Positions 7,273 through 27,651 of a DNA stretch of 64,000 nt are shown here, in pieces; position 1 is the stretch's first letter, and each line of letters begins with the position of its first letter. Source of the stretch: Clostridiales bacterium (GTDB lineage: Bacteria; Bacillota; Clostridia; Christensenellales; Borkfalkiaceae). Below the pieces are notes generated by a model. That model worked only from the letters and a program-made list of their open reading frames with translations, did not search any database and was not told the DNA's origin. The stretch spans positions 1 to 64,000 of the forward strand of contig SVHT01000008.1 in assembly GCA_015055615.1 (NCBI GenBank). Reading direction: 5' to 3'. The translations under genes were made by a program, and so were the position numbers.

Positions 7273-7351
7273 ACTCTTCTCCCAATTTCTGCGTTTGTAA
7301 AAACGCCGTTCTTTCAAAAAATCTTAGGCGTATATCCCCCTAAATTCGCCT

Positions 7352-9361: not shown

Positions 9362-9379
9362 ACTGTTACTCCTAATTTT

Positions 9380-11593: not shown

Positions 11594-11610
11594 GCTTGCC
11601 CCCGTAAAGC

Positions 11611-11640
11611 AAAACAGAGCGTTTCAAAACGCTCTTTTCG
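11611..11640 (-). terminator. Short hairpin between SGNH and GH78 genes
   Basis: AGAGCGTTT (11616-11624) pairs with AAACGCTCT (11627-11635), and on the minus strand GTTTTGC follows. The weak T run suggests partial termination or mRNA protection rather than a full stop. Confidence 0.45.
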
Positions 11641-11645
11641 CCCTT

Positions 11646-12290
11646 TTACTGCATTTTTGCGCGAACGTACGCGCTGATTTTTTCAGCCAAAATACGGTGC
11701 CCTTTATCGTTTGGATGCAATCCGTCCACCGTCAACCCGTCGCTCCCGTCGTTGGTTGCGGGGATAGGGAATTCTTTTTCGAATTCCAAAGTTTCAATGC
11801 CGTATTTTTGTAAAATCTCTTTGAGCAAAGCCACGTACGTAGACAAGGGCGCAACCGCCTTTTTCTTGTTCCCTTCGCCGTAAGGATTATCCTCGCCATA
11901 GCGGTGTATAGGCAAAATAAAGCAAAGCTTTTCCTTGCCGTAACGCGCCGTCAATTTTTTAATCAGCGAATTGACCGCTCCGCAAAAGGTATATTCGTCC
12001 GCGCTTTCAATATCGCCAAGTTCCGCATCGCCGTGACCGTAGTCGTTCGTTCCGCCAAACACAAAAACCAAATCCGCATCGCCCGACATACCGTCGGCGC
12101 GCATCAAAAAATCACGGTCGTAAATATCCAATTCGGAAGGAACGGTCTGTTTTGCAATACGCGTGCCTCCCTCGCCGTAATTTCTCACTTCGCAACCCAA
12201 AATCTGCCCTACAACGTTGACGTATTTCGCCTCTTCACAGCTTGCGCCCGCGCCTTGCGTGATGCTATCGCCTAAAAAGTTGATTTTCAT
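11646..12290 (-). CDS. SGNH/GDSL hydrolase
   Basis: This 214-residue enzyme shows block I 'FLGDSITQGAG' (catalytic Ser), a Gly block 'NYGEGG', the Asn block 'VFGGTNDYGHGD' and block V 'VDGLHPND' (catalytic Asp/His). This is a complete SGNH set. No signal peptide is present. In this setting, ahead of a rhamnosidase, it probably removes acetyl or other ester groups from imported oligosaccharides. It is the first gene after a well-formed promoter (12322-12350) whose start region overlaps a palindrome (12306-12324). It is one of four SGNH proteins in the window. Confidence 0.87.
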   Translation of the reverse strand: MKINFLGDSITQGAGASCEEAKYVNVVGQILGCEVRNYGEGGTRIAKQTVPSELDIYDRDFLMRADGMSGDADLVFVFGGTNDYGHGDAELGDIESADEYTFCGAVNSLIKKLTARYGKEKLCFILPIHRYGEDNPYGEGNKKKAVAPLSTYVALLKEILQKYGIETLEFEKEFPIPATNDGSDGLTVDGLHPNDKGHRILAEKISAYVRAKMQ

Positions 12291-12305
12291 GTTTTTCCTA
12301 CCTTT

Positions 12306-12324
12306 ACTAAAACTTTGTTTTAGT
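12306..12324. promoter_or_regulatory. Palindromic operator candidate ACTAAAAC-N3-GTTTTAGT
   Basis: Two perfect 8-bp arms (12306-12313 and 12317-12324) overlap the -10 element of the SGNH/GH78 promoter. The placement suits a repressor of the LacI or GntR kind controlling the glycan genes. No regulator gene lies next to it. Confidence 0.5.
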
Positions 12325-12350
12325 ATATCATGGTTTTATACAATAGTCAA
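12322..12350 (-). promoter_or_regulatory. Sigma-A promoter of the SGNH-GH78-DUF5127 operon
   Basis: On the minus strand TTGACT (12345-12350) and TATACT (12322-12327) are 17 bases apart, about 32 bases before the SGNH start codon. Confidence 0.7.
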
Positions 12351-12378
12351 GGCTATGCGGAAAAATTTCCCCATAGCC
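12351..12378. terminator. Hairpin after the GH127 gene
   Basis: GGCTATG (12351-12357) pairs with CATAGCC (12372-12378), with a further inner stem. It lies between the GH127 stop and the next promoter. There is no T run on the minus strand, so it is only a likely end of the glyA-GH127 transcript. Confidence 0.4.
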
Positions 12379-12416
12379 TCGTTGACTTTTTTTATGAGCG
12401 GATTGACCGCGCTTTT

Positions 12417-14255
12417 TTAAATTTTTTCCTGCCAAACGGTAATGTTTGCATTTTCGTCGTCGTAATTTTTACCAGCCTGCGCGTAATCGCAAAGGGTAAT
12501 CTTACCGTCTTTGGTCGTAATTTCATACGCAACGTTGCTGTTAAAGACACCGTTTTTGATACGCTTTGCACGTACGTTTTTACCGTTTCTCGCCGTGATA
12601 GCCACGGGTTTGGTAATATCCTCAAAACGACAGTCGCGCGCGAGCGTGATCGGTCCTTGCGTGAACGCGATTTTCTTGTTCAGAACCCACATCTTCACGG
12701 ACGTTTTAAAGCGCACCGCTACTTTGTCCTTACCCCAAGCGCGAGTAATAACAAGATAGCCGTTCTTTTCTGCGCCGTCCACCTTTTCGCCGTTGACGTA
12801 CACCGCAAAATCTTCCGCCCACGCAGGGATACGCAATCCCAAAGCAAAGGTTTGCCCCTTGCCGTTTACGTTGATTTTCGCGCCGTTATAGCGATAAGGG
12901 TTTGCGTATATGTCTACGCTGATTTTTTCGCCGAAATCTTCCGTCTTAAAACGGCAGTCGTTGTAGAGGTTGACGTACACGCCGTCCTCGCCTTTCATCA
13001 CCGCAAACAAGCCCATAATCGCCGTACCCGCCGCGCCGATACACACGCAACAGCCGTACGATTTGCCCTCTTGCATAATTTGACAACCGCCTACTCTAAG
13101 CCCGCGTCTGTCGTGGAACAAAGGACTGTAACTGTCAAACGGGAACGGTTCGAGCAAAGTTACGATGTGCATCGTGCCGTTGCTGTCCCAAGTGCGGGCT
13201 TGCGTTCTCGTCATCTGTTGTTCTTCGTTGTTCACCGCACCGTACAGCGCGTTCAATCCCGATTTTTCCACGTACGCCGCATATTTTGCGTTGCCCGTCA
13301 AAGCAAGCAATTTTGCGCACAGTTTCAAGAACGTAACCGTTACGCACGTTTCCTGCATAACCGTTTCTGCGGCGGGCTCGGTTTGCGTTTTGGACGAATT
13401 GTCCAACAACTCGTGCCAACAGCCCGAACCACCGATAATGGTATAGTCCGTTTCCACCAACATATCGACGAAATTTTCCACAGCCTGCAAATGGTCGGGG
13501 TTGCCCGTCACCTTATAATATTCCACCAAGCCCTCGAAACAACTCATCATCTCGTACGCCTTCGTAGTCGGGAACTGATAGGGATACATCGTTTTATGCA
13601 GACAGGTTTCAATCAAGTTAAACTGTTCGTTAAAGCCCGTACCTACCAAATACGTGGCAAAATCAAGGTATTTCTTTTCGCCCGTCAAAACGTGCAATTT
13701 TACGAACGGCTCCAAAATCGAGCAGGAATTCGTCGAACCCCAAATGCCCGACGTTTCAAAAATCGTCTTTTGCTTTCTGCCGTTGCCGATATGCTTGATA
13801 ATGTAATTCGCGTGGCGTTTCATGGCGTTGACGATTTTCTTTGCAAAAGCTTTGCTCTTGCAGATATCCAAGAAATAGAACATACCGAGCATGATATATT
13901 TTCTTGCCCAAATATCCCAACATCTGAATTCGGTATCTACCGAATACGCAGAGATACGTCCAAGTTCGTCCTGCGTGGAAAGCAAATCGTTGACGGTATC
14001 CACCAAAACGGCGTACAGCTTTTCATTTTTGGTCGCGCGATAGGTAAGCGACGCGCCACGCATCATTTTGCCCCAATATTCGCCACGCCAACCGCCGTTT
14101 TCACCGTCCCAACGGATACGGAACTGCTCCACGAACAACGTCCATTTTTCCGCGTCCAAAAGCTGTTTGTTAATGGTAAAATCGATCAACTTACCGCCGT
14201 AGCCACCAAACTTACTCTCCCCTGCTTTGGGGAAACTCAACGCCAAAGTTTTCAT
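12417..14255 (-). CDS. GH127-type beta-L-arabinofuranosidase (DUF1680)
   Basis: This 612-residue protein matches the beta-L-arabinofuranosidase/DUF1680 family. It has an N-terminal (alpha/alpha)6 barrel with 'EYWGKMMRGASLTYRATKNEKL' (quoted in part: MMRGASLTYRAT), a middle 'CWHELLDNSSKTQTEPAAE', then 'ETCVTVTFLKLCAKLL' carrying a conserved cysteine, and C-terminal beta-sandwiches. Founding members use a zinc-held cysteine and a glutamate to release L-arabinofuranose from arabinan or hydroxyproline-linked chains; relatives in GH142/GH146 have similar folds. No signal peptide, so it is cytosolic. It follows glyA by 26 bases, which is unusual company and suggests read-through from the glyA promoter. 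Confidence 0.82.
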   Translation of the reverse strand: MKTLALSFPKAGESKFGGYGGKLIDFTINKQLLDAEKWTLFVEQFRIRWDGENGGWRGEYWGKMMRGASLTYRATKNEKLYAVLVDTVNDLLSTQDELGRISAYSVDTEFRCWDIWARKYIMLGMFYFLDICKSKAFAKKIVNAMKRHANYIIKHIGNGRKQKTIFETSGIWGSTNSCSILEPFVKLHVLTGEKKYLDFATYLVGTGFNEQFNLIETCLHKTMYPYQFPTTKAYEMMSCFEGLVEYYKVTGNPDHLQAVENFVDMLVETDYTIIGGSGCWHELLDNSSKTQTEPAAETVMQETCVTVTFLKLCAKLLALTGNAKYAAYVEKSGLNALYGAVNNEEQQMTRTQARTWDSNGTMHIVTLLEPFPFDSYSPLFHDRRGLRVGGCQIMQEGKSYGCCVCIGAAGTAIMGLFAVMKGEDGVYVNLYNDCRFKTEDFGEKISVDIYANPYRYNGAKINVNGKGQTFALGLRIPAWAEDFAVYVNGEKVDGAEKNGYLVITRAWGKDKVAVRFKTSVKMWVLNKKIAFTQGPITLARDCRFEDITKPVAITARNGKNVRAKRIKNGVFNSNVAYEITTKDGKITLCDYAQAGKNYDDENANITVWQEKI

Positions 14256-14281
14256 GTTTTGTTCGTTCCTTAAAAAATATA

Positions 14282-15532
14282 TTATTGAATATCGTTTGCG
14301 TAGACGGGGAACTGTTCGCAGATTGCTTTTACTTCCGCGCGGACTTCGTCAAAACAGTTTTCCTTTTCTTTGATAACACGCGCCACCAAACGCGCCACCT
14401 TGCGACACTCTTCTTCCTTAAACCCGCGCGAGGTTACCGCAGGCGTACCTACACGAAGACCGCTGGTGATAAACGGCGAAGTCGTTTCAAAGGGAATCGT
14501 GTTCTTGTTCGCCGTGATATGCACTTCGTCGAGCATCTTTTCGAGTTCCTTACCCGTAACCCCCGTTTCGCGAAGGTCTAAGAGCATCAAATGGTTGTCC
14601 GTACCGCCCGACACCAAACGAATCCCGCTTTTTGTAAATTCGTCCGCCATCGCCTGCGCGTTGCGGATAATCTGTCTTTGATACGCCTTAAATTCGGGGG
14701 AAAGCGCCTCTTTAAACGCCACCGCTTTCGCTGCAATTACGTGCATTAAAGGACCGCCTTGCGTGCCGGGGAATACCGCTTTGTCAATCTGCTTTGCATA
14801 CTGTTCCTTGCACATGATTACGCCGCCGCGCGGACCGCGCAAGGTCTTGTGCGTAGTCGTCGTAACGAAATCCGCGTAAGGCACGGGGGACGGGTGTTCG
14901 CCTGCCACCACAAGCCCTGCGATATGGGCAATATCCACCATCATATACGCCCCCACTTTGTCGCAGATTTCACGGATACGCTTAAAATCAAGGATACGGG
15001 GATACGCACTCGCCCCCGATACAATCATCTTGGGTTGACACTCGATTGCAATTCTTTCCATTTCGTCGTAATCAAGTACTTCGGTTTCCTTGGAAACGCT
15101 GTACGAAACGAAGTTGAAATAGCTCCCCGAAACGTTGACGGGCGAGCCGTGCGTCAAATGTCCACCGTGCGAAAGGTCCATACCCATTACCGTATCACCG
15201 GGTTTGAGCATCGCAAAATACACCGCAAAGTTCGCTTGCGCACCGCTGTGAGGCTGTACGTTGCAATGGTCACAACCGAACAGCTCTTTCAATCTATCCC
15301 GCGCAAGATTTTCCGCCACGTCCACGTACTGGCAACCGCCGTAGTAGCGTTTGGAGGGCAACCCTTCCGCGTATTTATTGGTCAAATGCGAACCCATCGC
15401 CGCCATAACCGCGGGGGAAACGATATTTTCGCTGGCAATCAACTCGATATTCTCGCGCTGACGGCAAAGTTCGTCCTGCATCGCTGCATAAATTTCGGGG
15501 TCTGCGTTTTTAAGTAACGTCATATCAATCAT
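14282..15532 (-). CDS. glyA: Serine hydroxymethyltransferase
   Basis: This 416-residue PLP enzyme interconverts serine and glycine with tetrahydrofolate and supplies one-carbon units. It contains '[18 protein letters not shown]', '[11 protein letters not shown]', the PLP-lysine stretch '[13 protein letters not shown]' and a full-length C-terminal domain. Length is standard for the family. The ATG at 15532 has an AAGGAG site, and a good promoter (15576-15605) lies just upstream. The downstream neighbour is a glycoside hydrolase rather than another one-carbon gene. Confidence 0.96.
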
Positions 15533-16156: not shown

Positions 16157-16192
16157 AAAAAACCCGCGGTTGCGTATAAGCAACCGCGGTTG
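16157..16192 (-). terminator. Terminator of the nine-gene lipid operon
   Basis: CCGCGGTTGC (16164-16173) pairs with GCAACCGCGG (16180-16189), a 10-bp GC-rich stem, and on the minus strand GTTTTTTAT follows. It lies about 20 bases after the zinc-ribbon gene. Confidence 0.85.
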
Positions 16193-16209: not shown

Positions 16210-16746
16210 TTATAATGCCAAACACATCAACAAAATCAAGCCAAGGAAGAGAACCAATGCCGCAAGCACAAGACCTACGATACCCAAAATCAAGGTCGGA
16301 ATCGGTTTTACCCTGCCTGCGTTCTTCTCGCGCTTAAAGCACACGATAGACAAAATGCCCATTATCAAAGCCGGAATCGACATGCCAATCGGAGCCAACA
16401 AGAAAAACAGCGTTATTTCGTACATTTCGATATATTCCAAAAACTCTATCATCGACGAGAATTCGTAATAATATCCATATTCCTCGCATTCTTCCAATGC
16501 GCCGAGAATTAAACCTGCCGCGAACATAATCAAAAAGTAAGAAATTGCGCTCAAAATGGTGGCGGTCAACGCCTTACCCAATCCCGTTTTTCTGCTACCT
16601 TCTACCGCATGCCCTACGCTCGTCCCTCTTGCAACGGAAGACGGTTCTTCGCTCGGTTCTTCCGAGAAAAAATCGTTCGTTTCCTTGCAGTCTACGCAAA
16701 GTTCCGCATCATCATCGATCCATTTGCCACAGTTTCTACAATACAT
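16210..16746 (-). CDS. Zinc-ribbon membrane protein
   Basis: This 178-residue protein starts with a zinc ribbon, 'MYCRNCGKWIDDDAELCVDC', whose four cysteines sit at positions 3, 6, 17 and 20. A Ser/Glu linker follows, then three hydrophobic segments resembling DUF4190-type proteins, with 'FLLAPIGMSIPALIMGILS' and a final helix. The role is unknown. It lies 25 bases after the alpha/beta hydrolase and before the operon's terminator, so it is the last gene of the lipid operon, though it may be a bystander. Confidence 0.7.
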   Translation of the reverse strand: MYCRNCGKWIDDDAELCVDCKETNDFFSEEPSEEPSSVARGTSVGHAVEGSRKTGLGKALTATILSAISYFLIMFAAGLILGALEECEEYGYYYEFSSMIEFLEYIEMYEITLFFLLAPIGMSIPALIMGILSIVCFKREKNAGRVKPIPTLILGIVGLVLAALVLFLGLILLMCLAL

Positions 16747-16771: not shown

Positions 16772-17881
16772 TCAAAGTTGCTTATCAAACATTTCGATGA
16801 TTTTTGAAAGCAACTTTTCATTTACTTCGCTATACAGACGGTGGTCCACGTTCCGATAATACGCCGCCTTTTCATCGATAGTCAATTTTTTCCCTTTCGC
16901 CTTTTTTAAGGCTTTCAGCTCCTCTGCGACCTTGTTTTGATACTCCGCCGCCTCAAAGGAATGCCAAATATTATTATGGTCACCTTGCAAGCCGTAGCCG
17001 TCGTAATAAACCACGTTGGGATTGGTTATTTCCGCTTTGTGCGCCGTAATCGAATGCCCGTCATAGGTAATGACTTTATCCGTTTTACCCTGCGCAATCA
17101 ACACGGGGATATCCACGGAATTGATACCGCGCACACCGTTATATTCTACGTACTTGCCAAAGAGTATCTTTTGATAGGCGTCGAATACGGGCTTTGGCGC
17201 AACCGCAAGCTCGCCCGCATACCGACGCGCCGTTTCCATCATAATCTTCGACCCGTCGTTCATCGGCGCAATCCCCGCGCAAGCGCGTATGTCTTTGTGC
17301 AGTTCCAAAACTGAGGTCACCGCATAACCGCCCCAGCTATGTCCAATCAAAAACAACGGCTGGTTTTTAAATGCAGGTAAGCTCTTTAAATAGGTCAGCG
17401 TTCCGTCCAAATCGACGAGGGATTGGCACATACCCACCGTGGAATCGCCTTTGGACTCGTACGTGCCCGTAACGTTGTACGAAAACACGTTGTAGCCGTG
17501 GTTGACTACGTACTCAATCAATGGCAAATAATCGTCCCCGCCCGCGTGAATACCGTGTACGACCACTACCAAGCCCTTGCCTTGCGCCGAAGGGTAATAA
17601 TACCCTTTCAGTTCTGAAGTTTCCGTCTTGTAAAAAAACTCCGACCTCGTCAAGCGGTCCTTGATGCGCTCGTAACAATATTCCCCTGGGGTAATTCTGT
17701 AATCGGGGCGTTCGTAGCGTTTAAAGAATAAATCGTAACCGATAATGGACGAAGCAACCACAAATCCGCTAACGCCCGAAACCGACGCCAGTATCCCTGC
17801 AATCACTTTTTTTGTCTTCTCATTGGGAGTAAATTTCTTTTCATATTCCTTATTGTTGCCCATTCCGTCCGTTTTAATCAT
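16772..17881 (-). CDS. Membrane-anchored alpha/beta hydrolase
   Basis: This 369-residue protein has one N-terminal membrane segment (about residues 24-50). Its alpha/beta-hydrolase domain has an oxyanion-hole region 'VVHGIHAGGDDY', nucleophile elbow 'GHSWGG', acid 'AQGKTDKVI' and a late His in 'GLQGDHNNIW'. The catalytic Ser, Asp and His are therefore all present. It could be a lipase, an acyl-transferring enzyme or a type II thioesterase for carrier-bound acyl chains. It starts three bases after the LRAT-phosphopantetheinyl-transferase gene, which ties it to the acyl-carrier pathway. Confidence 0.82.
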   Translation of the reverse strand: MIKTDGMGNNKEYEKKFTPNEKTKKVIAGILASVSGVSGFVVASSIIGYDLFFKRYERPDYRITPGEYCYERIKDRLTRSEFFYKTETSELKGYYYPSAQGKGLVVVVHGIHAGGDDYLPLIEYVVNHGYNVFSYNVTGTYESKGDSTVGMCQSLVDLDGTLTYLKSLPAFKNQPLFLIGHSWGGYAVTSVLELHKDIRACAGIAPMNDGSKIMMETARRYAGELAVAPKPVFDAYQKILFGKYVEYNGVRGINSVDIPVLIAQGKTDKVITYDGHSITAHKAEITNPNVVYYDGYGLQGDHNNIWHSFEAAEYQNKVAEELKALKKAKGKKLTIDEKAAYYRNVDHRLYSEVNEKLLSKIIEMFDKQL

Positions 17882-17884
17882 CCC

Positions 17885-18898
17885 CTACTTGCTTAAATCT
17901 ACTTCGAGATAATAGCGCGCGTTGGCAAGGTTTTCCGTCGCTACCGACAGCATATATTCCTCTCCGTCCACGCACACCTTTTTCGTCGCCAAAGCATGCG
18001 CCGAAGTCTCTATTTTGCTCGGTCGAAAAGCCCCGCTATCCGCCGTCTTAAAAACGCTCTCTTTTTGCGTCCATTTGCCGACGAGATATTCTCTGCGTCT
18101 TGCGTTTTCGTCTACGCCTATCGCCGAAAATTCCTTGTTTTCCGACTTGGTCAGCACCTTTTGGATAACCCCTTCCTTCACGCCGTCTATTTTTTCAACG
18201 TCCACCCCGATTTCCCGTCTGGACACCGCGACCGCCACCGCGTTTTCACTATGCGAAATCGAGAAAAAACAAGAGGGAGTCGTCCATTTGCCACGCTTGG
18301 TTTTTTCAAAAACCAAATTCGACATTTTGTAGCCAAACGTACGATTGAGCGCGTATTCCAAGAGTTTCCAAGCGTAATATTTTTGGCGTTTTATCTTGTC
18401 GTTTGCGCAAGCGTCCACTTCGTCTTGACGAGCTTGCGGATAGAGCGTATCCTCGCCCGTTTCACTAGGGATTTTCGCCAAATACACGTCAGAAATCGGC
18501 ATATTTTTAAAAAGGTTGCGTACCGTATCCGCCTGTTCGCAACGCTTTTCACCCATGACGCACTCATAAGCGAAATGTTCGCAGTTGTTGTAGAGGATAT
18601 TATACCCCTTTTCCCCCAACCGCGCGCGAGCAAACGCCACCGTTTCTTTGGGCTTACGGCGTTTTTTATTCTCCTTTTTATCGAGCGTAGCCGTTTCCAA
18701 AAAACCGCCGATGAGGAAGTCGTCCACGTTAGAAACGCACACCTCAATCTCGCTGTCTTTGAGCATGGCGCGGGCAGAGGGAGCCAAGCCAAACTGAATA
18801 ATTTCGTCCTCGCTGACAAACACGCCGTAATGGTAAATGCCTCCCAATTTCACACGGACCATATCTCCCAACGACGGGTTTTTTAATTCCCACTTCAT
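17885..18898 (-). CDS. LRAT-like domain fused to 4'-phosphopantetheinyl transferase
   Basis: This 337-residue fusion has two enzymes. Residues 1 to about 130 are an LRAT/NlpC-P60-like (permuted papain) domain with His23 in 'YHYGVF' and the nucleophile Cys106 in 'NNCEHFAYEC'. The second His usual in this group is Gln35 here. Residues about 165-337 are a Sfp-like phosphopantetheinyl transferase with 'SISHS' near 214, 'GVDVEKI' at 231 and 'WTQKES' at 276, which hold the Mg2+ and CoA. The second half should convert the neighbouring apo-carrier proteins to their active form. LRAT-type domains move acyl chains from lipids or thioesters to amines or alcohols. It overlaps the ACP gene by four bases (ATGA). 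I know of no described protein with this pairing. Confidence 0.85.
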   Translation of the reverse strand: MKWELKNPSLGDMVRVKLGGIYHYGVFVSEDEIIQFGLAPSARAMLKDSEIEVCVSNVDDFLIGGFLETATLDKKENKKRRKPKETVAFARARLGEKGYNILYNNCEHFAYECVMGEKRCEQADTVRNLFKNMPISDVYLAKIPSETGEDTLYPQARQDEVDACANDKIKRQKYYAWKLLEYALNRTFGYKMSNLVFEKTKRGKWTTPSCFFSISHSENAVAVAVSRREIGVDVEKIDGVKEGVIQKVLTKSENKEFSAIGVDENARRREYLVGKWTQKESVFKTADSGAFRPSKIETSAHALATKKVCVDGEEYMLSVATENLANARYYLEVDLSK

Positions 18899-19152
18899 TG
18901 CGCCAATTTCTTCTCGATATAATCGAGAACGTCGCCAACGAGTCTAAAATCGCCAAACCCAACGTCGTCGAATTGAATCCCAAAGAATTCCTCTACGGCG
19001 ATAACGATATACAAAATCCCGACCGAGCTAAGCCCCAAATCGGTAACCAGATTGGCATCTTCCGTACATTTTTCTTCATCGTAGGCGCTGCCTACCGCCA
19101 TTTTAAATACGTCTTTCAGCTTTTCAGCAATCTCATTTCTTGTCATTTGCAT
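18895..19152 (-). CDS. Acyl carrier protein
   Basis: This 85-residue acidic helical protein has the carrier motif 'DLGLSSVG'; Ser43 is the expected phosphopantetheine site. It lacks the DSL triplet of housekeeping fatty-acid ACP, so it is a specialised pathway carrier. It overlaps the upstream AMP-ligase gene by 20 bases and the downstream LRAT-phosphopantetheinyl-transferase gene by four, so the three are translationally coupled. The simplest view is that the AMP ligase loads it and the fusion protein primes it. Confidence 0.9.
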   Translation of the reverse strand: MQMTRNEIAEKLKDVFKMAVGSAYDEEKCTEDANLVTDLGLSSVGILYIVIAVEEFFGIQFDDVGFGDFRLVGDVLDYIEKKLAQ

Positions 19153-20632
19153 TTTGGTTTCTCACTATTTTCATACTGGGCGAACGAACGAAATCGGTCG
19201 TTCTGATAATCACTTTATTTACGCGCATAAAGGCGGGCAACGTTTCGTTGATTTCGTTGACTTTCGCCTTAAAATGCCCTTCTACGTCTTCGATTGCAAG
19301 CGCCTTTACCACCGCCATACGGGGCAGAATTTCCACCGCCAACACGCCGTCGGTTTCATATACCAAGCAATCTTGTACGGTATCAATCATACCGAATTTG
19401 GTTTCAAGCTCCGCAGGAGAAACGTTTTCGCCGTTGGAAAGCACGATAATCTCTTTCTTTCTGCCCGTGATATACAAGAACCCTTCCTCGTCCATACGGA
19501 CAAGGTCGCCCGTCTTGAACCAACCGTCTTCGTACGCAATCGCGTTTTCTTCCGGTTCGCCAACGTATCCGTCCATCATATTCACACCTTTCAGCCACAG
19601 CTCGCCGTCTACTATCTTATATTCCATACCCTCGTAGATATACCCTACCGAATCGGCTTTTCGCAACGCCTCGGGGTTACCGCTAACGAGGTTTGCGCTC
19701 TCCGTCAAGCCGTATCCAGGCAAAAGAGCCACGCCGAATTTATCGTATTCTCTAACCAAATAGGGAGCAACCGCCGCCGCGCCGCAAATAATCGTTTTTA
19801 AGTCTGCGCCCAGCATATTTCTGCCGAACTGTTTGGAAAGGTTGAGCGCCATTTCCGCAAGCGCGGGTACGAGCACCATAATCGTGGGTTTAAACACCGC
19901 GATTTCCTTGAACATATCCTTCGTGTTACGGCAGATATAAATAGCGCTACCCGTATAAAAATTCGTCAGCAGGTTGCGCACCAAACCGAATACGTGCGTG
20001 AGCGGGAGCACCAAGAAGTATCTTTGCCCAAATACGTGCTGATAACCGTAGCAACCGTTTTTTACACCGCGCATCGTCGCGCTGTGGGACAACAGAACGC
20101 CTTTACTTCTGCCCGTCGTGCCGCCCGTGAACAGCACGCAACAAGGCGCGCTTCCGTCCACGTCTGCAATTTCCGAGGGTTTATCGCTGGAAATCGTTTC
20201 GTCCAACAAGATAAGCCTAGGGTTCTTTTCCGCCGCAAACGCCGTTTTTTCCTGCAATGCGGGCGCGTAAATCAAGGCTTTTAAGCCAAATTTCATCGAA
20301 CAGCCGAACACCGTCATCGCGTCGAGGTGCGCGGGCAACAAAACCGCCACCGCGCCGAGCGTCGTAATCGCCAAAAACGCCTTTGCAAACGCCGTGGAAT
20401 TGGGCATCAATATCCCCACGTTATCCCCTGCGACAATACCCTTTTCTTGCAACGCCGCGCGCATTTTGCAAACCTGTTCGTCCAACTGCTTATAGGTAAG
20501 CGCTTCCCCGTCCACAATCGCTACGTCGTCGGGATAGGACGCCACGCTGTTTTTCCACATTTCGCCGACGCTTTTATAATCGACGATTTTCGCAAAGGTA
20601 TTTTCGTCCGTGTATTTTCTGAAATCTACCAT
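19133..20632 (-). CDS. AMP-forming acyl-CoA/acyl-ACP ligase
   Basis: This 499-residue ANL-superfamily enzyme has all core motifs: P-loop 'LFTGGTTGRSKG' near 170, 'GYGLTES' near 310, 'KTGDLVRMDEEGFLYITGRKKE' (A8 hinge; shown only as GRKKE) and a C-terminal Lys in 'PSMKI'. It activates a carboxylic acid with ATP and passes it to CoA or to a carrier protein. Because its gene overlaps that of the free acyl carrier protein, loading of that ACP is the likely job. Substrate cannot be read from the sequence; fatty or other alkyl acids fit the nearby acyltransferases. Confidence 0.88.
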   Translation of the reverse strand: MVDFRKYTDENTFAKIVDYKSVGEMWKNSVASYPDDVAIVDGEALTYKQLDEQVCKMRAALQEKGIVAGDNVGILMPNSTAFAKAFLAITTLGAVAVLLPAHLDAMTVFGCSMKFGLKALIYAPALQEKTAFAAEKNPRLILLDETISSDKPSEIADVDGSAPCCVLFTGGTTGRSKGVLLSHSATMRGVKNGCYGYQHVFGQRYFLVLPLTHVFGLVRNLLTNFYTGSAIYICRNTKDMFKEIAVFKPTIMVLVPALAEMALNLSKQFGRNMLGADLKTIICGAAAVAPYLVREYDKFGVALLPGYGLTESANLVSGNPEALRKADSVGYIYEGMEYKIVDGELWLKGVNMMDGYVGEPEENAIAYEDGWFKTGDLVRMDEEGFLYITGRKKEIIVLSNGENVSPAELETKFGMIDTVQDCLVYETDGVLAVEILPRMAVVKALAIEDVEGHFKAKVNEINETLPAFMRVNKVIIRTTDFVRSPSMKIVRNQNANDKK

Positions 20633-20635
20633 AAA

Positions 20636-21334
20636 TTAGCTCTCCTTGTTTTTCTTCTTTTTGTCAAATCGGTCGTGATAATATTGCATCAATTCCAATT
20701 CTTTTTCGCGGATATAATTGCTTGCCTTTTCAATCTCTTCCATCGTAGGCACCGCCCCGCACAAAGCATTGACGTCAATCGGTTCGCCAACAATGGATAT
20801 ACGACGGCTGTACCAATGCTTTACGGGCGCAAAATATACGGGCACAACCGGTTTGTGGCTGATATGCGCCATCAAAATCACACCCGATTTATACGTTTTC
20901 AAACTCTCGTCATCCCGATTGACCGTCCCTTCGGGGAAGACCACCACCGCTTTTTCCTCTTTCAAACGTTCGCACACGCCGCGAAAGGACGACATATGAA
21001 AATTGTCTTTGTCAATCATAATACAGTTCATTTGATTGAAAAACCAATTTTTTAATTTCGTATCAAACAAGTTCTTTGTCGCCAAGCAATGCAACCGTCT
21101 ATACCAAAAAACGCAATGCACCCTGACAGGGTCCAAAAAACTCCCGTGATTGGGCGCAATCAATACGCCCTTTTTAAAACGTTTCGGCACGTTTTGATTG
21201 ACACGGACGGTTTTTGGACGAAACCAAATCAGCGTAGGCAATACACCCGTGACTTTCACAAAATCGTATACGAAATTACATTTTTTCTTTTTCTTTTTTA
21301 CCTTTTTGGGCTTTTTCTCTTCTACCAAGCTCAT
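20636..21334 (-). CDS. PlsC-type acyltransferase (1)
   Basis: This 232-residue protein has the glycerolipid acyltransferase motifs H63-X4-D68 in 'NHGSFLD' and 'VFPEGTVNRDDES'. Enzymes of this kind move acyl chains to lysophospholipids or related alcohols at the membrane. The first 18 residues are lysine-rich (KKKKKK) and are coded by bases that also encode the tail of the second acyltransferase, a 59-bp overlap. The start at 21334 therefore lies inside the upstream gene. A later Met would lose little, so the exact start is less sure than the family. It sits three bases before the AMP ligase. Confidence 0.87.
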   Translation of the reverse strand: MSLVEEKKPKKVKKKKKKCNFVYDFVKVTGVLPTLIWFRPKTVRVNQNVPKRFKKGVLIAPNHGSFLDPVRVHCVFWYRRLHCLATKNLFDTKLKNWFFNQMNCIMIDKDNFHMSSFRGVCERLKEEKAVVVFPEGTVNRDDESLKTYKSGVILMAHISHKPVVPVYFAPVKHWYSRRISIVGEPIDVNALCGAVPTMEEIEKASNYIREKELELMQYYHDRFDKKKKNKES

Positions 21335-21944
21335 CTTTTAATGCAATAACCTTTTCTCTTAACTTTTCGTTGACCAAAGCGACGTTTTCCGAATCGGATA
21401 AATTTGGATCACACCACTCTTTTACGTCAATCGGTTTCCCAATCATCACACTCGCTCTCTTCTTGCCAAAATAAGAGCCGTTGACCGCCACGGGAACGAT
21501 TGGCGCGTCGTTTTCAAGCGCGGTGTATACTGCGCTCGGTTTAAAGGGCAACGGCGTTTCTTCCCCCTCCCTCGGCAAGCGAGATTCTGGGAAAATCAGC
21601 AAAACACCCTTCTTTTTTAATATCTTATTACTCTTTTCCATAAAGGAAAAATCATGCGTTTCTCTATCGACCTTAACACCGCCAAGCCCTTTCAAAAGAC
21701 CCGTCAAAACAAAATTTTTGCGGTACATTACTTCCGCTATTTGACAACGTAACGAACGGCGGTGAAAGACGAACATCAACAAGGGATAATCCCAAATAGA
21801 ATAGTGGTTAGAAACCACAATCGCCTTTCCCCGAATCCCGCGCTTTTGCACTTTTTTGTCTTCGTAGTAAATCTTTTTGCGGAACGCAAAGACGTGCAGA
21901 AGCCACGCCGTCACTTTGACGAACCAGTTACAAAACCAAATCAT
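21276..21944 (-). CDS. PlsC-type acyltransferase (2)
   Basis: This 222-residue acyltransferase has H47-X4-D52 in 'NHYSIWD' and 'IFPESRLPREGEE'. The N-terminus is hydrophobic and amphipathic (MIWFCNWFVKVTAWLLHVF), fit for membrane binding. It differs clearly from the other PlsC protein, so two different acylations are likely rather than a plain copy. The start overlaps the permease stop by four bases, and its lysine-rich 3' end overlaps the next gene by 59 bases. Confidence 0.87.
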   Translation of the reverse strand: MIWFCNWFVKVTAWLLHVFAFRKKIYYEDKKVQKRGIRGKAIVVSNHYSIWDYPLLMFVFHRRSLRCQIAEVMYRKNFVLTGLLKGLGGVKVDRETHDFSFMEKSNKILKKKGVLLIFPESRLPREGEETPLPFKPSAVYTALENDAPIVPVAVNGSYFGKKRASVMIGKPIDVKEWCDPNLSDSENVALVNEKLREKVIALKDELGRREKAQKGKKEKEKM

Positions 21945-23878
21945 GCTTGCTCAGTAGCCCCTTCTACGGACGCCGTTTCTTCCACGCCATTCTCCGCGTT
22001 TTCTTCCGCTTTGTAAATATTGTTCATATTCTTCTGCAACAGCGAAAGGCTGACTACGTTAATGGGCAAAATCGGGAACATAATACCGAAAATGATAAAC
22101 AAAGCGGGGTTTCCAACCGTTTTTGCGCCGACCTCGTTCGCTTTTGCCTTGATTGCCTTGAACGCTTTCAGCGTGAAGATAATAGAGGCGAACGGGATCA
22201 GACACGAACATACCCACGCCAAGCCCGAAGAGAATTTCTTCGCAATTTTCTTAATCGAGTTGAACAAGAACGCCAACCAAACGAAACCGAAGATAAAGCC
22301 CGAAAGTACGGAAAGACCAATCTGTACGAACAAGATTTCGCCCTTTTCTTCTTTGTGGTTGTATTCTTCGCTGATTTCAAGCTTGGACAAATCAACGCTC
22401 GGGTCAAGCTTTTTGAGTTCTCTGCCCACGCACTCTGCGGTGTAGTCTTTCGGCATCTTTCTTGCCAAGAACGCGCCCAAAACACAGCAAATCGCTACGA
22501 TAAAGGGAACGAGCAAAAGCCCGAGGTTAAACACCTGCGACGCGTCCGCACCGAATTTCAATGCGGCAATATCCAAGGCGTATTTACCCGTCGCCCATTT
22601 TACGCCCCACGTGCCTTTGCAAATGAACAGGTTTTTAATAAGTTCATAAATCAGCGAACCGGAAATTGCGCTGACGATAGACGTACAAACGGCGTTGCCC
22701 GCAAAGTACATTGCGGAGTGGTTTTTACCCGTCAATTTTTCTTCCACGCTGGAAATCTGCGCAGGAACAAGGTAGGGCATCATAAAGAACGCGCCGATTG
22801 CCCAGCTACCGCAAACACCGCCAAGACAGCCGATAACGTATTGAATCCCTACGTTGTTTGTGCCCAGCATAAACGTGGACGCAAAGAAGAAGGACAAAAT
22901 GGATACCGCAAAGGATATCAAACAGCTTTGATAGGTAAAGCGGGTACCCTTTTTCGCTTTCAGTTTATTAAACAGATACAGCATTACGGGCACGGGAGCA
23001 AACGCGCAGGTATTCAAAATCGCCATTTGCGCGCCGTCCATACCCATACCGCCCGTGATGAGCGCGTTCATGCTGACAAGGAACATCTGCAAACCGAAGA
23101 AGGTACAGCAGTTTACAACCTGCCATCTCATAAAGATTTTGTTTTTAAAGGTCAAGCGAATACTTTCGCCAAGGGTAACTTTTTCTTCCTTTAACCCCTC
23201 GTTTTCGGGATAGCCGTATTTTGCCCCTTCCTTAATCATAAACAGAGGAATTACCAGCGTCAACATCAAGGGCGAACAAATATATACGAAATTGTTGATA
23301 TAAACGTTCATACCGTCCAAAACCAGGGGTACAAGCGCGTATACCAAGCAATAGGAAATGGTATCGAAGAAGGATTTATACCCCGATACGCGCAGACGTT
23401 GCGGTTCGTTTACGCACGTCGTCGAAAGGGAGCCGTAGTACGCAATCATACCCATCGTATAGGTCGCGAAGAAAATCAACGCCCATACCAAAATCCAAGC
23501 GGTATTAATTGCCTGATGCCCAGCACCGCCAATCGGTAACCAACACATGACGTACGCCAACATCATAGGCAACAAGCAAACCAAAATGGCAGGTCTGCGT
23601 CTGCCCCATTTCGTTGACAGCGTATCCGTGATATGCGCAAAAGGAATATCGATAATGCCGTCAAAGGCCTTTGCAATCGCATACAAAATCGGAAAAACTG
23701 CGGGCATAATAAAGCAAGCGCCACTTGCAAACCGCATGTATTTCCCGGCTTCGCCAAGCGCCGACGGATTGATAGCGTCCGTAAAGTACGCCCCCATCAA
23801 AACCATTAAAAAGTTGGGACCGAACCCCGAAAAGCCGTATAAAAACTCTTTCCACTTTTTATTTAACGAGTTAACCAT
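21941..23878 (-). CDS. MFS/GPH-family permease
   Basis: This 645-residue membrane protein is of the MFS_2 or glycoside-pentoside-hexuronide:cation symporter type. It has 'FDGIIDIPFAHITDTLSTKWGRRRP' (core: GRRRP) near residue 90 and twelve predicted helices. It is longer than usual for the family because of an extra cytosolic part and more C-terminal helices. GPH relatives also include lipid transporters (LplT-like and MFSD2A-like flippases). Placed inside an acyl-lipid operon, overlapping an acyltransferase gene, it may move the lipid product or a precursor across the membrane; that is inference. A GGAGGTG site precedes the ATG. Confidence 0.82.
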   Translation of the reverse strand: MVNSLNKKWKEFLYGFSGFGPNFLMVLMGAYFTDAINPSALGEAGKYMRFASGACFIMPAVFPILYAIAKAFDGIIDIPFAHITDTLSTKWGRRRPAILVCLLPMMLAYVMCWLPIGGAGHQAINTAWILVWALIFFATYTMGMIAYYGSLSTTCVNEPQRLRVSGYKSFFDTISYCLVYALVPLVLDGMNVYINNFVYICSPLMLTLVIPLFMIKEGAKYGYPENEGLKEEKVTLGESIRLTFKNKIFMRWQVVNCCTFFGLQMFLVSMNALITGGMGMDGAQMAILNTCAFAPVPVMLYLFNKLKAKKGTRFTYQSCLISFAVSILSFFFASTFMLGTNNVGIQYVIGCLGGVCGSWAIGAFFMMPYLVPAQISSVEEKLTGKNHSAMYFAGNAVCTSIVSAISGSLIYELIKNLFICKGTWGVKWATGKYALDIAALKFGADASQVFNLGLLLVPFIVAICCVLGAFLARKMPKDYTAECVGRELKKLDPSVDLSKLEISEEYNHKEEKGEILFVQIGLSVLSGFIFGFVWLAFLFNSIKKIAKKFSSGLAWVCSCLIPFASIIFTLKAFKAIKAKANEVGAKTVGNPALFIIFGIMFPILPINVVSLSLLQKNMNNIYKAEENAENGVEETASVEGATEQA

Positions 23879-23905
23879 TACACACCTCCAAAAGTTAACC
23901 TTTTT

Positions 23906-25828
23906 CTATTTCTTGATGAATTGATAAAATTCCTGCACGGAAGACAGCTTTCTATTTTCCGAAGTCGCCACTTCCACGCCGTATTTATCCTTAATCATAT
24001 CAAGCAACGTAAAATAATCCAAGCTGCTACCGCCAAGGTCTGTGAAGAAATCTGCCGTTACCGCAATTTCCTCCTCCTTCTTTTGCAACACCTGCGCAAA
24101 GCAAGCGCACAGTTCCTTTTCCAAAACCGAGAGTAAGAATTGCGTATGGCTTTCCGCGTTTTCGCGTTCAATCAGCATGAGCTGTCCCGCGTTGTAACGT
24201 TTGGCAATCTTCTTTCTGCTCACCTTAAAATCGCTTGCGCCGAGGAGTTTATCCGTCGTCAACGCCACCACGGGTACCTCGTCTTTAATCTGCGCCCTTT
24301 CCAATTCCGCAACGGCGCTGTCGTACGTTTCGCGGAACCCCTCCGCCGAGAAACAACCCGTCACGCTGACGAGCAACGTCGGCGTGCCTTTGCCGTCCGT
24401 AAACAGACATACCTCGTCCGCATTTTTAATCTGCAACTTGCCTTCCAATAGCTCGGGATTGATTTTTTCGCCGTTTTTACAAACGATTAAATCGTCCTCT
24501 CTGCCCTGCAAGTAATATTTACCGCTTTCTTCCTTAGCGAGGTCACGCGTGTTAAACCACTCGTCAAAGTCGGTGATTTTCACTTCGCCTTTCTGCATGA
24601 TACGGCTTGCCATCGTCTTGCCTTTTACCAGCAATTCTCCGTCCTTGGAAACGCTGTACTGCGTGCCCCCGAACGGCGCGCCGACCGAGCCTTTGTTCAA
24701 CTCCTTCCGTTTCATGGAAATATCCACGGACGTAATGCCGATTTCGCTCATGCCGTAGCCGTTTGCCATGTGATACCCAATGCCGTTAAAGAACGCAAGC
24801 GCCTCTTGCGAGATACCGCTACCCCCCGTAATCAAGAAACAGATACTGTCCCCAAAGAGCCCCTCACGCACCTCTTTAAACGCCATTTTGGATAAAAGCG
24901 AGCCGAGCTTTTCGTGCTTGCTGACAAACGCCATCGCTTTTTGGAATTTTTTATACGTTTTCGCCTCGCGTGAACGGATTTTTTGCAACGCCTTCTTATA
25001 CACCGTTTCCCATACCAAAGGCACGGCGAAAATATGCGTCACCTTGTGCTTTTGCACCGTATTGAGCAAGGTCTGCGGTGTCAAATCTTTCAAAAATACC
25101 AACGTCCGCGAAAAGAACCCGAACCACATATACACCGCAATAAAACCGAACACATGGTAAAAGGGCAACAAGGCAAGAATTTTCAACTCGCCCTCGTAAT
25201 GCTTTTTCATCTGCGGGCATTTGGTAATAATATTTACGCTGTCGCAAATCTGATAATAGAAATTCTCGCCCGTATACGCGCAAAGTTTTATATTGTCGGA
25301 CGTGCCCGAGGTCATAAACAGCACTTCCGTCCCCCACACTGCATTTTCCGTTTTGGTTTCGGCTTGCCCCTTAAAAGCGTCCGCGGCGTTTACCGTCGGC
25401 ACGCAAAAGGTTTTGCCGTCCGATACCACGGCGGCAACGCCGTATTCCTGCAACACGTTTTCCAACACGTCGGCGTTCAAGCGGGAATTCATCAAAAGCG
25501 GATTGTACCCCGCCCGCAAAATCGCCCAAAAAAGCTCAATCCACTCGATGCTGTTTGCCATATACAAGCCCACAATCGAGCCCTTAGGCGCAACGGAGAG
25601 CATTTTTTCTACGGCGGGAACGATACTTGCGATTTTATCCGCGCATTCCCCGTACGTAATCTTTTGAATACGGTAGCCGTCGGAAATCTCCGCCATGATA
25701 TTTTCCCTTTCAGAAAACATATACGAAAACAGCGTTTCAAAGTTCTTTTCCTGACGGCCATAGCGCGCCAGCTTGTCGCGCGCATAGTCGTCTATGCTAT
25801 GAAACCCTGCAATATTCTTTAATTTCAA
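23906..25828 (-). CDS. AMP-ligase with C-terminal carrier domain
   Basis: This 640-residue protein is a loading module. An ANL adenylation domain (about 1-550) has 'LFMTSGTSDNIK', 'NGYGMSEIG' and 'GREDDLIVCKNGEKINPE'. It is followed by a carrier domain ending the chain, with phosphopantetheine site Ser602 in 'DLGGSSLD'. Such didomains start polyketide, peptide or lipid assembly by activating an acid and holding it on their own arm. It begins with TTG, supported by a GAGGTG site at proper distance. It is the first gene of the operon, behind promoter 25898-25926, and its carrier should be activated by the phosphopantetheinyl transferase seven genes on. Confidence 0.87.
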   Translation of the reverse strand: MKLKNIAGFHSIDDYARDKLARYGRQEKNFETLFSYMFSERENIMAEISDGYRIQKITYGECADKIASIVPAVEKMLSVAPKGSIVGLYMANSIEWIELFWAILRAGYNPLLMNSRLNADVLENVLQEYGVAAVVSDGKTFCVPTVNAADAFKGQAETKTENAVWGTEVLFMTSGTSDNIKLCAYTGENFYYQICDSVNIITKCPQMKKHYEGELKILALLPFYHVFGFIAVYMWFGFFSRTLVFLKDLTPQTLLNTVQKHKVTHIFAVPLVWETVYKKALQKIRSREAKTYKKFQKAMAFVSKHEKLGSLLSKMAFKEVREGLFGDSICFLITGGSGISQEALAFFNGIGYHMANGYGMSEIGITSVDISMKRKELNKGSVGAPFGGTQYSVSKDGELLVKGKTMASRIMQKGEVKITDFDEWFNTRDLAKEESGKYYLQGREDDLIVCKNGEKINPELLEGKLQIKNADEVCLFTDGKGTPTLLVSVTGCFSAEGFRETYDSAVAELERAQIKDEVPVVALTTDKLLGASDFKVSRKKIAKRYNAGQLMLIERENAESHTQFLLSVLEKELCACFAQVLQKKEEEIAVTADFFTDLGGSSLDYFTLLDMIKDKYGVEVATSENRKLSSVQEFYQFIKK

Positions 25829-25897: not shown

Positions 25898-25926
25898 ATT
25901 TTATCACATTTCTATCATATATGCAA
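25898..25926 (-). promoter_or_regulatory. Sigma-A promoter of the nine-gene lipid operon
   Basis: On the minus strand TTGCAT (25921-25926) and TAAAAT (25898-25903) are separated by 17 bases, about 70 bases before the TTG start. No other promoter is evident until the operon terminator at 16157, as most gaps are absent or under 30 bases. Confidence 0.6.
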
Positions 25927-26067: not shown

Positions 26068-26078
26068 AAAAGAAAATA

Positions 26079-26094
26079 TGTGCATATATGCACA
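26079..26094. promoter_or_regulatory. 16-bp perfect palindrome between promoter and start codon
   Basis: TGTGCATATATGCACA lies just after the expected transcription start and before the AGGAGG site of the permease gene. It could be an operator for a dimeric regulator. I saw no purine-riboswitch core in the leader. Confidence 0.45.
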
Positions 26095-26113
26095 AATAGG
26101 AGGTTTGTTTCAT

Positions 26114-27651
26114 ATGAACAAGTTTGGTAAACTCTTGGGCTACGACGGCAAAGAGAAACAGACGAGCGTCAAAACGGAACTCGTTGCAGGTGTTGTTACC
26201 TTCCTTGCAATGGCGTACATTTTGACGGTTAATCCCGACCAAATTTTTGGTAGAGGCAGTGCGTATTGGGCATCGGCGTTTATGGCGACGGCGTTCGGCG
26301 CGGTCATCGGTACTTTGCTAATGGCGTTCCTTGCAAAAATGCCTTTGGCGCAGGCGTCTGGTATGGGTCTGAACTCCATGCTCGGCGGTATCATCGGCGG
26401 TTGGGGCGGCTACGGCAAGTTCACCCCTGGTCAAGCTTTTATGCTCGTATTAATTTCGGGCTTGGCTTTCTTACTGTTATCCCTTATTAAGATTAAAGGT
26501 AAGACCTTCCGCGAACTCGTCTTTGACGGTATGCCCGTTGCGGTTAGAAGCGCAATTTCCGTTGGTATCGGTTTGTTTATCGCATACATCGGTCTGCAAA
26601 ATGCGGGCGTCATCGTTACCAACCATTTCACACAAGTCGGCTTTGTTAAGTTTACCAATTGGGGACAACAGCTTGTCAACGTAGGTACTGTTGTTGATCA
26701 TCATATGATTGAACCTATCTACAAGGTAGCTGCAAAAATGGCAATCGTTGCTCTTTCGGGCTTGTTCTTGATTACTATTTTGGATAAATTTAAAGTTAAG
26801 GGTTCCATTATTTTTGGTATTATCGGCGCAACGATTATCGGTATCCCTTTCGGCGTTACCGACCTTAGTATTTTGAAAGGCGACGGCGCTATTTCTTGGA
26901 AATTCTGGGAAAACTATAAAACTTCTTCGCTGGCGGTGAAAACTCCGTATTCGGTTCGTTCACGAGCGTATTTAAGAGCGGTAGTGGCGGTCTTATCCCC
27001 GCAGGCGTTTCCATCTTCACGATTATCATGATTATCATCACGATGTGTATGATTGATATGTTCGACACCATGGGTACAATCGTTGGTTGCTGCGGCGGCA
27101 ACAGAATTCTGTCCGACGAAAACAACAAACCCCATAACTACGGCAAACTTATGATCAGCGACGCAGTTGCTACTTGTACGGGCGCAATGCTCGGTACGTC
27201 CACCGTTACGACCTTCGTCGAATCGGGCGCAGGCGTATCCGCAGGCGGTAGAACGGGTCTTACGGCATTGACAACGGCTTGCTTGTTCTTCCTTGCAACC
27301 TTCGCGCTTCCCTTGTTTGCGGCAATTCCCCCGGCAGCGGCAGCATCTGCGCTTATCTACGTAGGCGTTTTGATGATGAAAAACAATATCAAGAGTGTTG
27401 ATTTCAGCAACGCTATCAACGCTACTTCCGCTTTCCTTACCATGGTAATCATGGTTCTCTCCTACTCGATTACGACGGGTATTGGTGTGGGTCTTATCTC
27501 CTTCACCCTTATGTCGATTATCGCTTACTTCGTAGAACTTATCAAGTATGCTATCACGAAGAAGGAAAAACCCGTTTGGAACGTTTCTATCGTTGCAATC
27601 ATAGTATCCCTTCTCTTTGCTGTATACTTCTTCGTTCCTGCAACGATTTAA
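26114..27651 (+). pseudogene. NCS2 (AzgA/PbuG-like) purine permease with a frameshift
   Basis: The start (ATG 26114 with AGGAGG) opens a frame clearly of the hypoxanthine/guanine/adenine NCS2 permease family: 'GVVTFLAMAYILTVNP' and 'ASGMGLNSMLGG'. Around 26917-26921 the reading moves to another frame, which continues with 'GGENSVFGSF', 'MFDTMGTIVG' and the conserved 'ESGAGVSAGGRTGL' to the stop at 27651. Adding one A to the run of four A (26918-26921) would restore a single chain of about 512 residues with fitting sequence. Either the gene is a recent pseudogene or the run is a sequencing or assembly error. The strong promoter, ribosome site and terminator all favour a gene that was active until very recently. 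Confidence 0.85.

Follow-up and report, generated by a model that had tools for sequence, protein, structure and literature searches.

A nine-gene acyl-carrier operon from a Clostridiales bacterium, probably a portable lipid-salvage and reacylation system

Introduction

What can a bacterium do with an operon that provides two routes for loading acids on carriers, several acyl-moving enzymes and a lipid-type transporter, and nothing for building a chain? This question is raised by nine consecutive genes (A to I) in the window, the 64,000-nucleotide stretch of contig SVHT01000008.1 (assembly GCA_015055615.1) analysed here, from a Clostridiales bacterium whose genome comprises 1.69 Mb in 12 contigs, the window lying on contig 11. 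An earlier annotation made from the letters alone (the sequence-only reading) had proposed an undescribed pathway in which two acids are activated, attached to a head group and flipped as a new acylated amine, amino acid or glycerol-like lipid. Our results indicate that the operon is probably a portable lipid-salvage and reacylation system working like LplT-Aas of Escherichia coli, rebuilt from other parts. How some uncultured gut bacteria acquire membrane lipids after losing fatty-acid synthesis is largely open, and the cassette offers candidate genes that can be tested; should the proposal hold, gut bacteria would exchange lipid provisioning as a cassette-borne trait.

The FakA/FakB-PlsX/PlsY pathway of Firmicutes feeds outside fatty acids into phospholipids. 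In E. coli and other Gram-negatives, lysophospholipids are remodelled by LplT-Aas which, in the accessible portion of a 2024 study, is described as identified only in Gram-negatives, while other proteins of the major facilitator superfamily (MFS) may serve elsewhere (PMC11416262). Mitis-group streptococci take up glycerophosphocholine and lysophosphatidylcholine and acylate them in two steps; the accessible text of this 2019 paper presents the transporters as unidentified and the acyltransferases as still to be found (PMC6805115). Furthermore, loss of fatty-acid synthesis is reported for the order RF39 of uncultured gut bacteria in the sections available of another study (PMC6784871). In the literature searched, where coverage of subscription journals was mostly missing, we found no description of the present gene set, consistent with the sequence-only reading, which knew of no named pathway with it.

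Results and discussion

Gene content of the operon

Nine minus-strand open reading frames follow one another from 25828 down to 16210, in the order A-B-C-D-E-F-G-H-I, with eight inter-gene spacings between -59 and 27 bases (27, -4, -59, 3, -20, -4, 3 and 25 from A to I). All nine are in place as the sequence-only reading had them, although the overall coordinates it gave span only eight, the ninth (16210-16746) lying just below their lower limit. The genes, with lengths in amino acids (aa) and Pfam scores, are as follows.

23906-25828, minus strand: A, AMP-forming acyl ligase with C-terminal acyl-carrier domain, 640 aa, TTG start (AMP-binding 122.7 bits, PP-binding 39.9 bits)
21941-23878, minus strand: B, GPH/MFS_2 transporter, 645 aa (MFS_2 PF13347, 115.2 bits, cut-off 27)
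21276-21944, minus strand: C, first PlsC-type acyltransferase, 222 aa (Acyltransferase 66.9 bits)
20636-21334, minus strand: D, second PlsC-type acyltransferase, 232 aa (Acyltransferase 76.5 bits)
19133-20632, minus strand: E, AMP-forming acyl ligase, probable synthetase of acyl-acyl carrier protein (acyl-ACP), 499 aa (AMP-binding 209.9 bits)
18895-19152, minus strand: F, free ACP, 85 aa (PP-binding 22.3 bits, cut-off 20.8)
17885-18898, minus strand: G, fusion of an LRAT domain and an Sfp-type phosphopantetheinyl transferase (PPTase), 337 aa (LRAT 66.6 bits, ACPS 35.9 bits)
16772-17881, minus strand: H, alpha/beta hydrolase with an N-terminal hydrophobic anchor read by eye, 369 aa (Hydrolase_4 65.8 bits)
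16210-16746, minus strand: I, accessory zinc-ribbon membrane protein, 178 aa (DUF4190, below cut-off only)

Pfam agrees with the domain assignments made earlier, the zinc-ribbon gene matching only DUF4190, below cut-off. The reading as an acyl-carrier-dependent lipid operon with two acid-loading routes and dedicated acyl transfer holds. The earlier statement that chain building is not the aim also holds, since in Pfam and NCBIfam none of the nine proteins matched a ketosynthase, a dehydratase, a reductase or a condensation domain. With the same two collections no FakA, FakB or PlsX was detected among them, and with Pfam neither an MBOAT domain nor any resemblance to a head-group maker.

A conserved and portable cassette

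Named bacterial and archaeal genomes were scanned with an alignment of B, seeded by two short peptide patterns of B; the design of the scan means that B is present at each of the 65 loci recovered (designated L) and that more divergent carriers escape it. Nearly all are metagenome bins, many of them from ruminant guts, with titles that include Clostridia, Oscillospiraceae, Bacilli, Erysipelotrichaceae, Acholeplasmataceae and Spirochaetales; the submitters' labels place the carrier bins in Bacillota, Mycoplasmatota and Spirochaetota. As to the co-occurrence that the sequence-only reading proposed to check, at least three of the seven core genes A-G are present in 52 of the 65 loci, and 49 of these 52 keep the window order, two of the exceptions (L060 and L079) arising through an extra upstream match and only L112 being genuinely different. 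Because the set recurs in this order elsewhere, in unrelated genomes too, the operon is more than a chance arrangement; its genes are not scattered, and no match to a known cluster with a known product emerged from the literature searched. Across the 52 cassettes, A occurs in 46, C in 50, D in 43, E in 37, F in 39, G in 44, H in 11 and I in 20, and in the other 13 loci the count of A-G stays below three, a contig end truncates the locus, or genes are concealed by a fusion (L115).

The surroundings differ. When flanking genes were clustered (clusters in at least four loci, flanks not annotated gene by gene), no family widely accompanied the cassette; the largest cluster, whose sequence resembles an ABC-type ATPase, was found in 11 loci at varying distances, and DegV in 5, and close relatives such as L098, L099 and L101 have common flanks. 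The gene set is thus a conserved, portable cassette in differing surroundings, and it is accessory, given that only 6 of 101 genomes (the host and its relatives, host included) have B at 59 per cent identity or more. In a tree of B, the two Spirochaetota rows fall inside Bacillota, and the two Mycoplasmatota rows stand at two places, one of them (L117) with a very long branch. This makes transfer between phyla likely but does not prove it, because bins may hold foreign contigs and the phylum labels are those of the submitters; base composition is uninformative on this point (G+C 0.474 in the cassette, 0.481 and 0.433 in its flanks). The two loci labelled Spirochaetota, L059 and L061, have B-C-D-E-F without A and G, followed downstream by an MMPL-family gene in L059 and by a gene of equal length in L061.

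Among family members above score limits, on which all residue counts for the enzymes are based, catalytic positions are kept almost throughout. In A, whose homologues begin at the same place, the five adenylation residues and carrier Ser602 are present in 46 of 46 members; in E, the P-loop Lys, Glu, Asp and Arg are found in 37 of 37 and the A10 Lys in 35 (the remaining 2 are gaps); the attachment Ser43 of F is kept in 40 of 40. The HX4D motif is complete in both acyltransferases (C 51/51, D 45/45). In G, His23 and Cys106 of the LRAT half are kept in 41 of 41 members reaching the site, and the PPTase half has its Lys-Glu in 33 of 33 reaching it; of its metal residues, Asp is retained in 32 and Glu in 30 of 34 members. 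The presumed triad of H (Ser182, Asp268, His302) is present in 11 of 11. With these residues retained, A, C, D, E, F, G and H look like active enzymes and carriers.

E is probably an acyl-ACP synthetase, with F as its putative partner: their genes overlap by 20 bases and, at the 43 well-covered loci (window and L042 included), both occur in 25, E alone in 1 and F alone in 3. Homologues of E were also seen in other settings. In L152, L153, L154 and L155 distant ones are grouped with two further genes, one for a carrier protein and one for a 461-463-residue protein, which in L152 is a condensation domain according to Pfam and looks similar in the other three; perhaps these three-gene sets are a minimal lipid-amide pathway. 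In a related set on a 627-kb plasmid of the cultured species Lachnospira eligens (L035, 10852-17420), a ligase 41 per cent identical to E stands in a series of PlsC, AMP ligase, ACP, patatin, flavodoxin, SGNH hydrolase and PlsC genes.

Fatty-acid synthesis in cassette carriers

The ketoacyl synthase domain PF00109 was detected in only 3 of 50 cassette carriers (representing 50 of the 65 loci, bin completeness not given) versus 146 of 196 genomes from the host's class, a contrast with a Fisher p of 1.2e-19 that ignores shared ancestry; 14 control genomes were positive in all three PF00109 runs. It was not found in the host genome, and among the host and its relatives it occurs in 11 of 101 genomes, none of them in the host's own family (about 60 genomes). 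PlsX and PlsY were found in 44 and 45 of the 50 carriers, so gross incompleteness of the bins does not explain the missing ketoacyl synthase, and the idea that the cassette replaces PlsX/PlsY is rejected in general. When 70 genome entries were considered (designated G, host included), PlsX was present in 64 and PlsY in 63, the host having both, four of the entries being duplicates with the same PlsX coordinates (G023/G343, G027/G311, G054/G308 and G058/G322); the 7 entries in which PlsY (PF02660) was not found include both Spirochaetota bins, G058 and its duplicate G322. The FabH-type domain PF08545 was matched in 6 of the 70 entries and in none of the 20 known to be of the host's family; one match belongs to the genome that carries L056, of all loci the one closest to the window, and two to double ketoacyl-synthase frames of G321 and G325. 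These frames (G321 contig 93, G325 contig 196) are 769 residues long with two ketoacyl-synthase stretches, and the two genomes are among the three PF00109-positive carriers. As judged from these domain searches, the carriers appear mostly unable to elongate acyl chains and dependent on chains from outside, and they mostly keep the ordinary glycerol-phosphate route, to which the cassette would add.

Natural fusions and likeness to Aas

Fusions between cassette genes tell, as far as gene architecture can, which products work together. In L057, D and E form one 726-residue protein, PlsC then AMP ligase, the same architecture as the 719-residue E. coli Aas, to which it is 32 per cent identical across 262 ligase residues and 30 per cent identical across 128 acyltransferase residues; the idea that a missing D means a single acylation is rejected for this locus, where D sits inside the fusion. 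Family profiles gave the same correspondence: that of D matched the N-terminal part of Aas (residues 22-139, 48 bits), that of E the C-terminal part (residues 233-653, 123 bits) and that of C the first part (29 bits). Other fusions join A, C and D in one 1100-residue protein (L115), C and D (L112), and the PPTase with the hydrolase H (L062).

Related operons with FakA-, FakB- and PlsX-type genes

Relatives of the cassette genes, marked here by a prime, were found in operons with genes that handle free fatty acids or acyl-phosphates. In the host's genus, L145 (G023 contig 41, 112981-120398; locus positions 6981-14398) carries a DegV/FakB-type gene, a FakA-type kinase, B', A' (a ligase with carrier), C' (PlsC) and a hydrolase, the kinase scoring 477 bits against the YloV profile (over cut-off) and 362 against that of FakA (under the cut-off of 975). 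It resembles the window operon in an acyl-phosphate form, and the same genome also holds L118, a B-C-D-G-H cassette in which G is reduced to its PPTase. In the Acholeplasma locus L117, a small gene separates B' from a pair of PlsC genes, after which come PlsX (307 bits, over cut-off) and DegV. The genome of L042 belongs to the host's order but to a different family; there A-C-D-E-F-G runs unbroken into a hydrolase, DegV and B' with gaps of at most 9 bases, and in L079 the latter three genes precede a complete cassette. FakB can be named at family level only, because the four DegV proteins scored 80 to 135 bits against FakB1, whose model cut-off is 350. Taken by their gene content, these operons would tie the cassette's families to exogenous fatty acids.

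The transporter

Despite its clear MFS_2 match, B reached only 45 bits against the NCBIfam model TIGR00792 (gph), whose cut-off is 231. Studied members of the MFS_2 family import by symport. The cation-site residues Asp73 and Asp77 of B are each present in 64 of 65 members, and in a 36-row alignment of B with the melibiose symporter MelB of E. coli, the equivalents of the MelB cation-site residues Asp55, Asp59 and Thr121 are kept in 35 rows each; Tyr120 is kept as well. In all 36 rows, in contrast, the galactoside residues Lys18, Asp19, Asp124 and Arg149 are replaced by Pro, Asn, Leu/Met/Val and Ser/Ala, and the position of Lys377, between both sites, is Ser, Thr or Ala. According to the accessible sections of a study of MelB, an importer by symport from which these residue roles are taken, the cation site is common to the whole family, including phospholipid transporters, and the sugar residues are not (PMC8329300).

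The predicted structure of B (pLDDT 83.6) ranked MFSD2A, the sodium-lysophosphatidylcholine symporter, first to third in Foldseek (7mjs, 8d2t, 8d2s) and MelB fourth to eighth, but VIA-align scored MelB (30.3), MFSD2A (30.3) and the drug antiporter SotB (30.0) alike; the fold therefore fits a lysolipid substrate and is no proof of it. B thus resembles MFSD2A and MelB in family, fold and cation-site aspartates, and differs in the absence of the MelB sugar residues, in an identity of 11 to 15 per cent in the structural alignments, and in an additional helical C-terminal part of about 140 residues. This extension (residues 505-645, window 21941-22366) lies beyond the part aligned with MelB and MFSD2A, and a sequence search for a solved relative of B returned as sole profile match a designed ion channel, to the helical tail; kinship of this part with gene I was rejected (hhalign E 0.087, probability 0.7 per cent). 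With an E limit of 10, the B family profile (36 sequences) did not match E. coli LplT. In L108, L111, L113, L114 and L120, B belongs to a divergent branch, stands without the cassette and is followed in each case by a 188-194-residue gene of one family, which by eye reads as a TetR-type regulator.

Lipid salvage and the competing explanations

Salvage and reacylation is favoured over a new product because of the mostly missing elongation with PlsX/PlsY mostly kept, the fusions, and the related operons linked to Fak and PlsX genes. In the scheme that we consider probable, B, as a cation-coupled GPH transporter of the MelB/MFSD2A family, would import an incomplete glycerolipid, most likely a lysophospholipid and possibly a glycerophosphodiester. 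Exogenous or recycled fatty acids would be activated with ATP by E and A, E loading the free carrier F and A its own carrier domain, both kept in active form by the PPTase half of G. The two different PlsC enzymes, C and D, would then acylate the imported acceptor in two acylations, and the LRAT half of G together with the anchored hydrolase H would probably act on surrounding lipids, freeing acyl chains or moving them. The gene content and order, their conservation, the retained catalytic residues, the fusions, the linkage to Fak/PlsX genes and the lack of ketoacyl synthase in most carriers are observed; we infer the substrates, the direction of transport, the carrier used by E, the order of acylation and the roles of LRAT and H.

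The likeness to LplT-Aas lies in the grouping of a transporter gene with genes for an acyltransferase and an acyl-ACP synthetase (probable for E), with D and E adjacent as the two Aas parts that are fused in L057. The window operon differs in its transporter, which is of the GPH/MFS_2 and not the LplT family; in the presence of a dedicated ACP and PPTase, a further ligase-carrier protein, another PlsC, an LRAT domain and a hydrolase; and in its hosts, bins labelled Bacillota, Mycoplasmatota and Spirochaetota. With the Fak pathway it would share the feeding of outside fatty acids into phospholipids, and related operons place FakA-, FakB- or PlsX-type genes next to the same transporter and PlsC families; it uses, however, AMP-forming ligases and carriers instead of acyl-phosphate and has no FakA, FakB or PlsX inside. 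C and D, as two acyltransferases, recall the two-step acylation of streptococcal scavenging, a pathway to which the accessible text ties no gene (PMC6805115). A more specific version, possible but tentative, would make the operon an LplT-Aas counterpart beyond the studied Gram-negatives, in which an MFSD2A-like cation-driven importer of lysophospholipid or glycerophosphodiester, two acyl-ACP synthetase systems and two PlsC enzymes rebuild phospholipid, the LRAT-PPTase protein couples the switching-on of carriers to acyl release, and the whole moves as a unit among bacteria unable to make fatty acids.

Some points weigh against salvage. Members of the host's family manage without elongation and, for the most part, without the cassette as well; simple reacylation does not account for an LRAT domain or for two loading systems; the acceptor is so far hypothetical; and a new lipid product keeps a small share of the probability.

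Such a product, the core of the sequence-only reading, is the likeliest of the alternatives, though we regard it as unlikely. Here A and E would activate two different acids, C and D place these on a dedicated head group (an amine, amino acid or sugar), LRAT add an N-acyl step, and B export or flip the result. Natural-product clusters commonly combine two separate activating systems, each with its carrier, and a PPTase encoded in the operon; the LRAT family includes N-acyltransferases, and the distribution is patchy (6 of 101 genomes). However, none of the nine genes resembles a head-group maker and no further family widely accompanies them (single loci could hold one), the D-E fusion is of Aas type and the parts as a whole match Aas-LplT, B keeps the cation site of a symporter family, elongation is missing from most carriers, and the FakA/FakB/PlsX neighbours point to fatty-acid handling; the proposal of a new product is therefore less supported than the gene content on which it was built.

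In a second alternative, B would be an importer of free fatty acids or monoacylglycerols; A and E would capture these in the form of acyl-carrier thioesters, and C and D would serve as extra phosphatidate-making enzymes, giving a second acyl-ACP entry to the PlsY/PlsC route. The mostly missing elongation with PlsX/PlsY mostly kept, the FakA/FakB/PlsX neighbours, which handle free fatty acids or acyl-phosphates, and the best NCBIfam match of both C and D, a 1-acylglycerol-3-phosphate acyltransferase model below its cut-off, agree with this. A second entry is nevertheless hard to justify alongside PlsX/PlsY, free fatty acids usually need no symporter, and two distinct PlsC genes (C in 50 and D in 43 of the 52 cassettes, D sometimes hidden in a fusion) suggest a dedicated acceptor, which makes the alternative doubtful. 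The D-alanylation (Dlt) system also has a ligase and a carrier, beside the MBOAT acyltransferase DltB; the window operon differs from it in lacking an MBOAT domain. Finally, membership of a polyene or lipopeptide-type cluster is highly improbable: an acyl-ACP synthetase, free ACPs and a PlsC-like enzyme do occur together in the E. coli aryl polyene cluster, as the portion consulted of its description states (PMC8253772), and in L152 to L155 a carrier and a protein of condensation type (by Pfam in L152 only) accompany distant E homologues, but the nine proteins lack ketosynthase, dehydratase, reductase and condensation domain, and ketoacyl synthase was not found in 47 of 50 carrier genomes.

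Accessory genes and the architecture of G

That G is always a fusion was rejected: in single-sequence searches, it is fused in 28 of the 65 loci, represented by LRAT only in 10 (one of them, L063, cut by a contig end) and by PPTase only in 5, split into neighbours in 2, and neither part was found in 20. The closest solved structure to the PPTase half is Sfp (E 1.4e-5), and those closest to the LRAT half are HRASLS/PLAAT phospholipase-acyltransferases, with weak scores (E 0.014 to 0.94). As a cassette probe G is poor, since 36 of the 101 genomes were positive, many through the PPTase part alone. Gene I has a CxxC near its N-terminus in 34 of 35 members, and it forms tandem arrays downstream of the cassette in L070, L072, L058, L062 and L118, with as many as seven copies in L070, of which the final one matches weakly.

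Transcription signals and flanking sequence

A terminator and a putative promoter flank the operon.

16164-16189, minus strand: intrinsic terminator, 10-pair stem with 8 G-C, then a T run
25898-25926, minus strand: putative promoter TTGCAT-17-TAAAAT, 8 of 12 consensus bases, read by eye

The terminator, graded strong, ends the operon as the sequence-only reading had proposed. The promoter proposed there can be read at its site and is weak; it is absent from the output of the promoter scan, which needs at least 9 of 12 consensus bases. Promoter-like sites in the region (27, versus 17.7 in shuffles, standard deviation 3.3) were non-discriminating. Rfam gave no match at gathering scores in the whole window, hence no sign of an RNA element, and PADLOC none for the six of the nine operon proteins submitted to it, hence no sign of a defence system.

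Downstream of the operon, two 12/12 matches to a sigma-70-type promoter lie at 16114-16086 and 15605-15576 (minus strand), ahead of the next two genes on that strand. Upstream, on the plus strand, a permease-like gene is split into two overlapping frames (26078-27031 and 27028-27651), which by eye suggests a frameshift in the gene or in the assembly.

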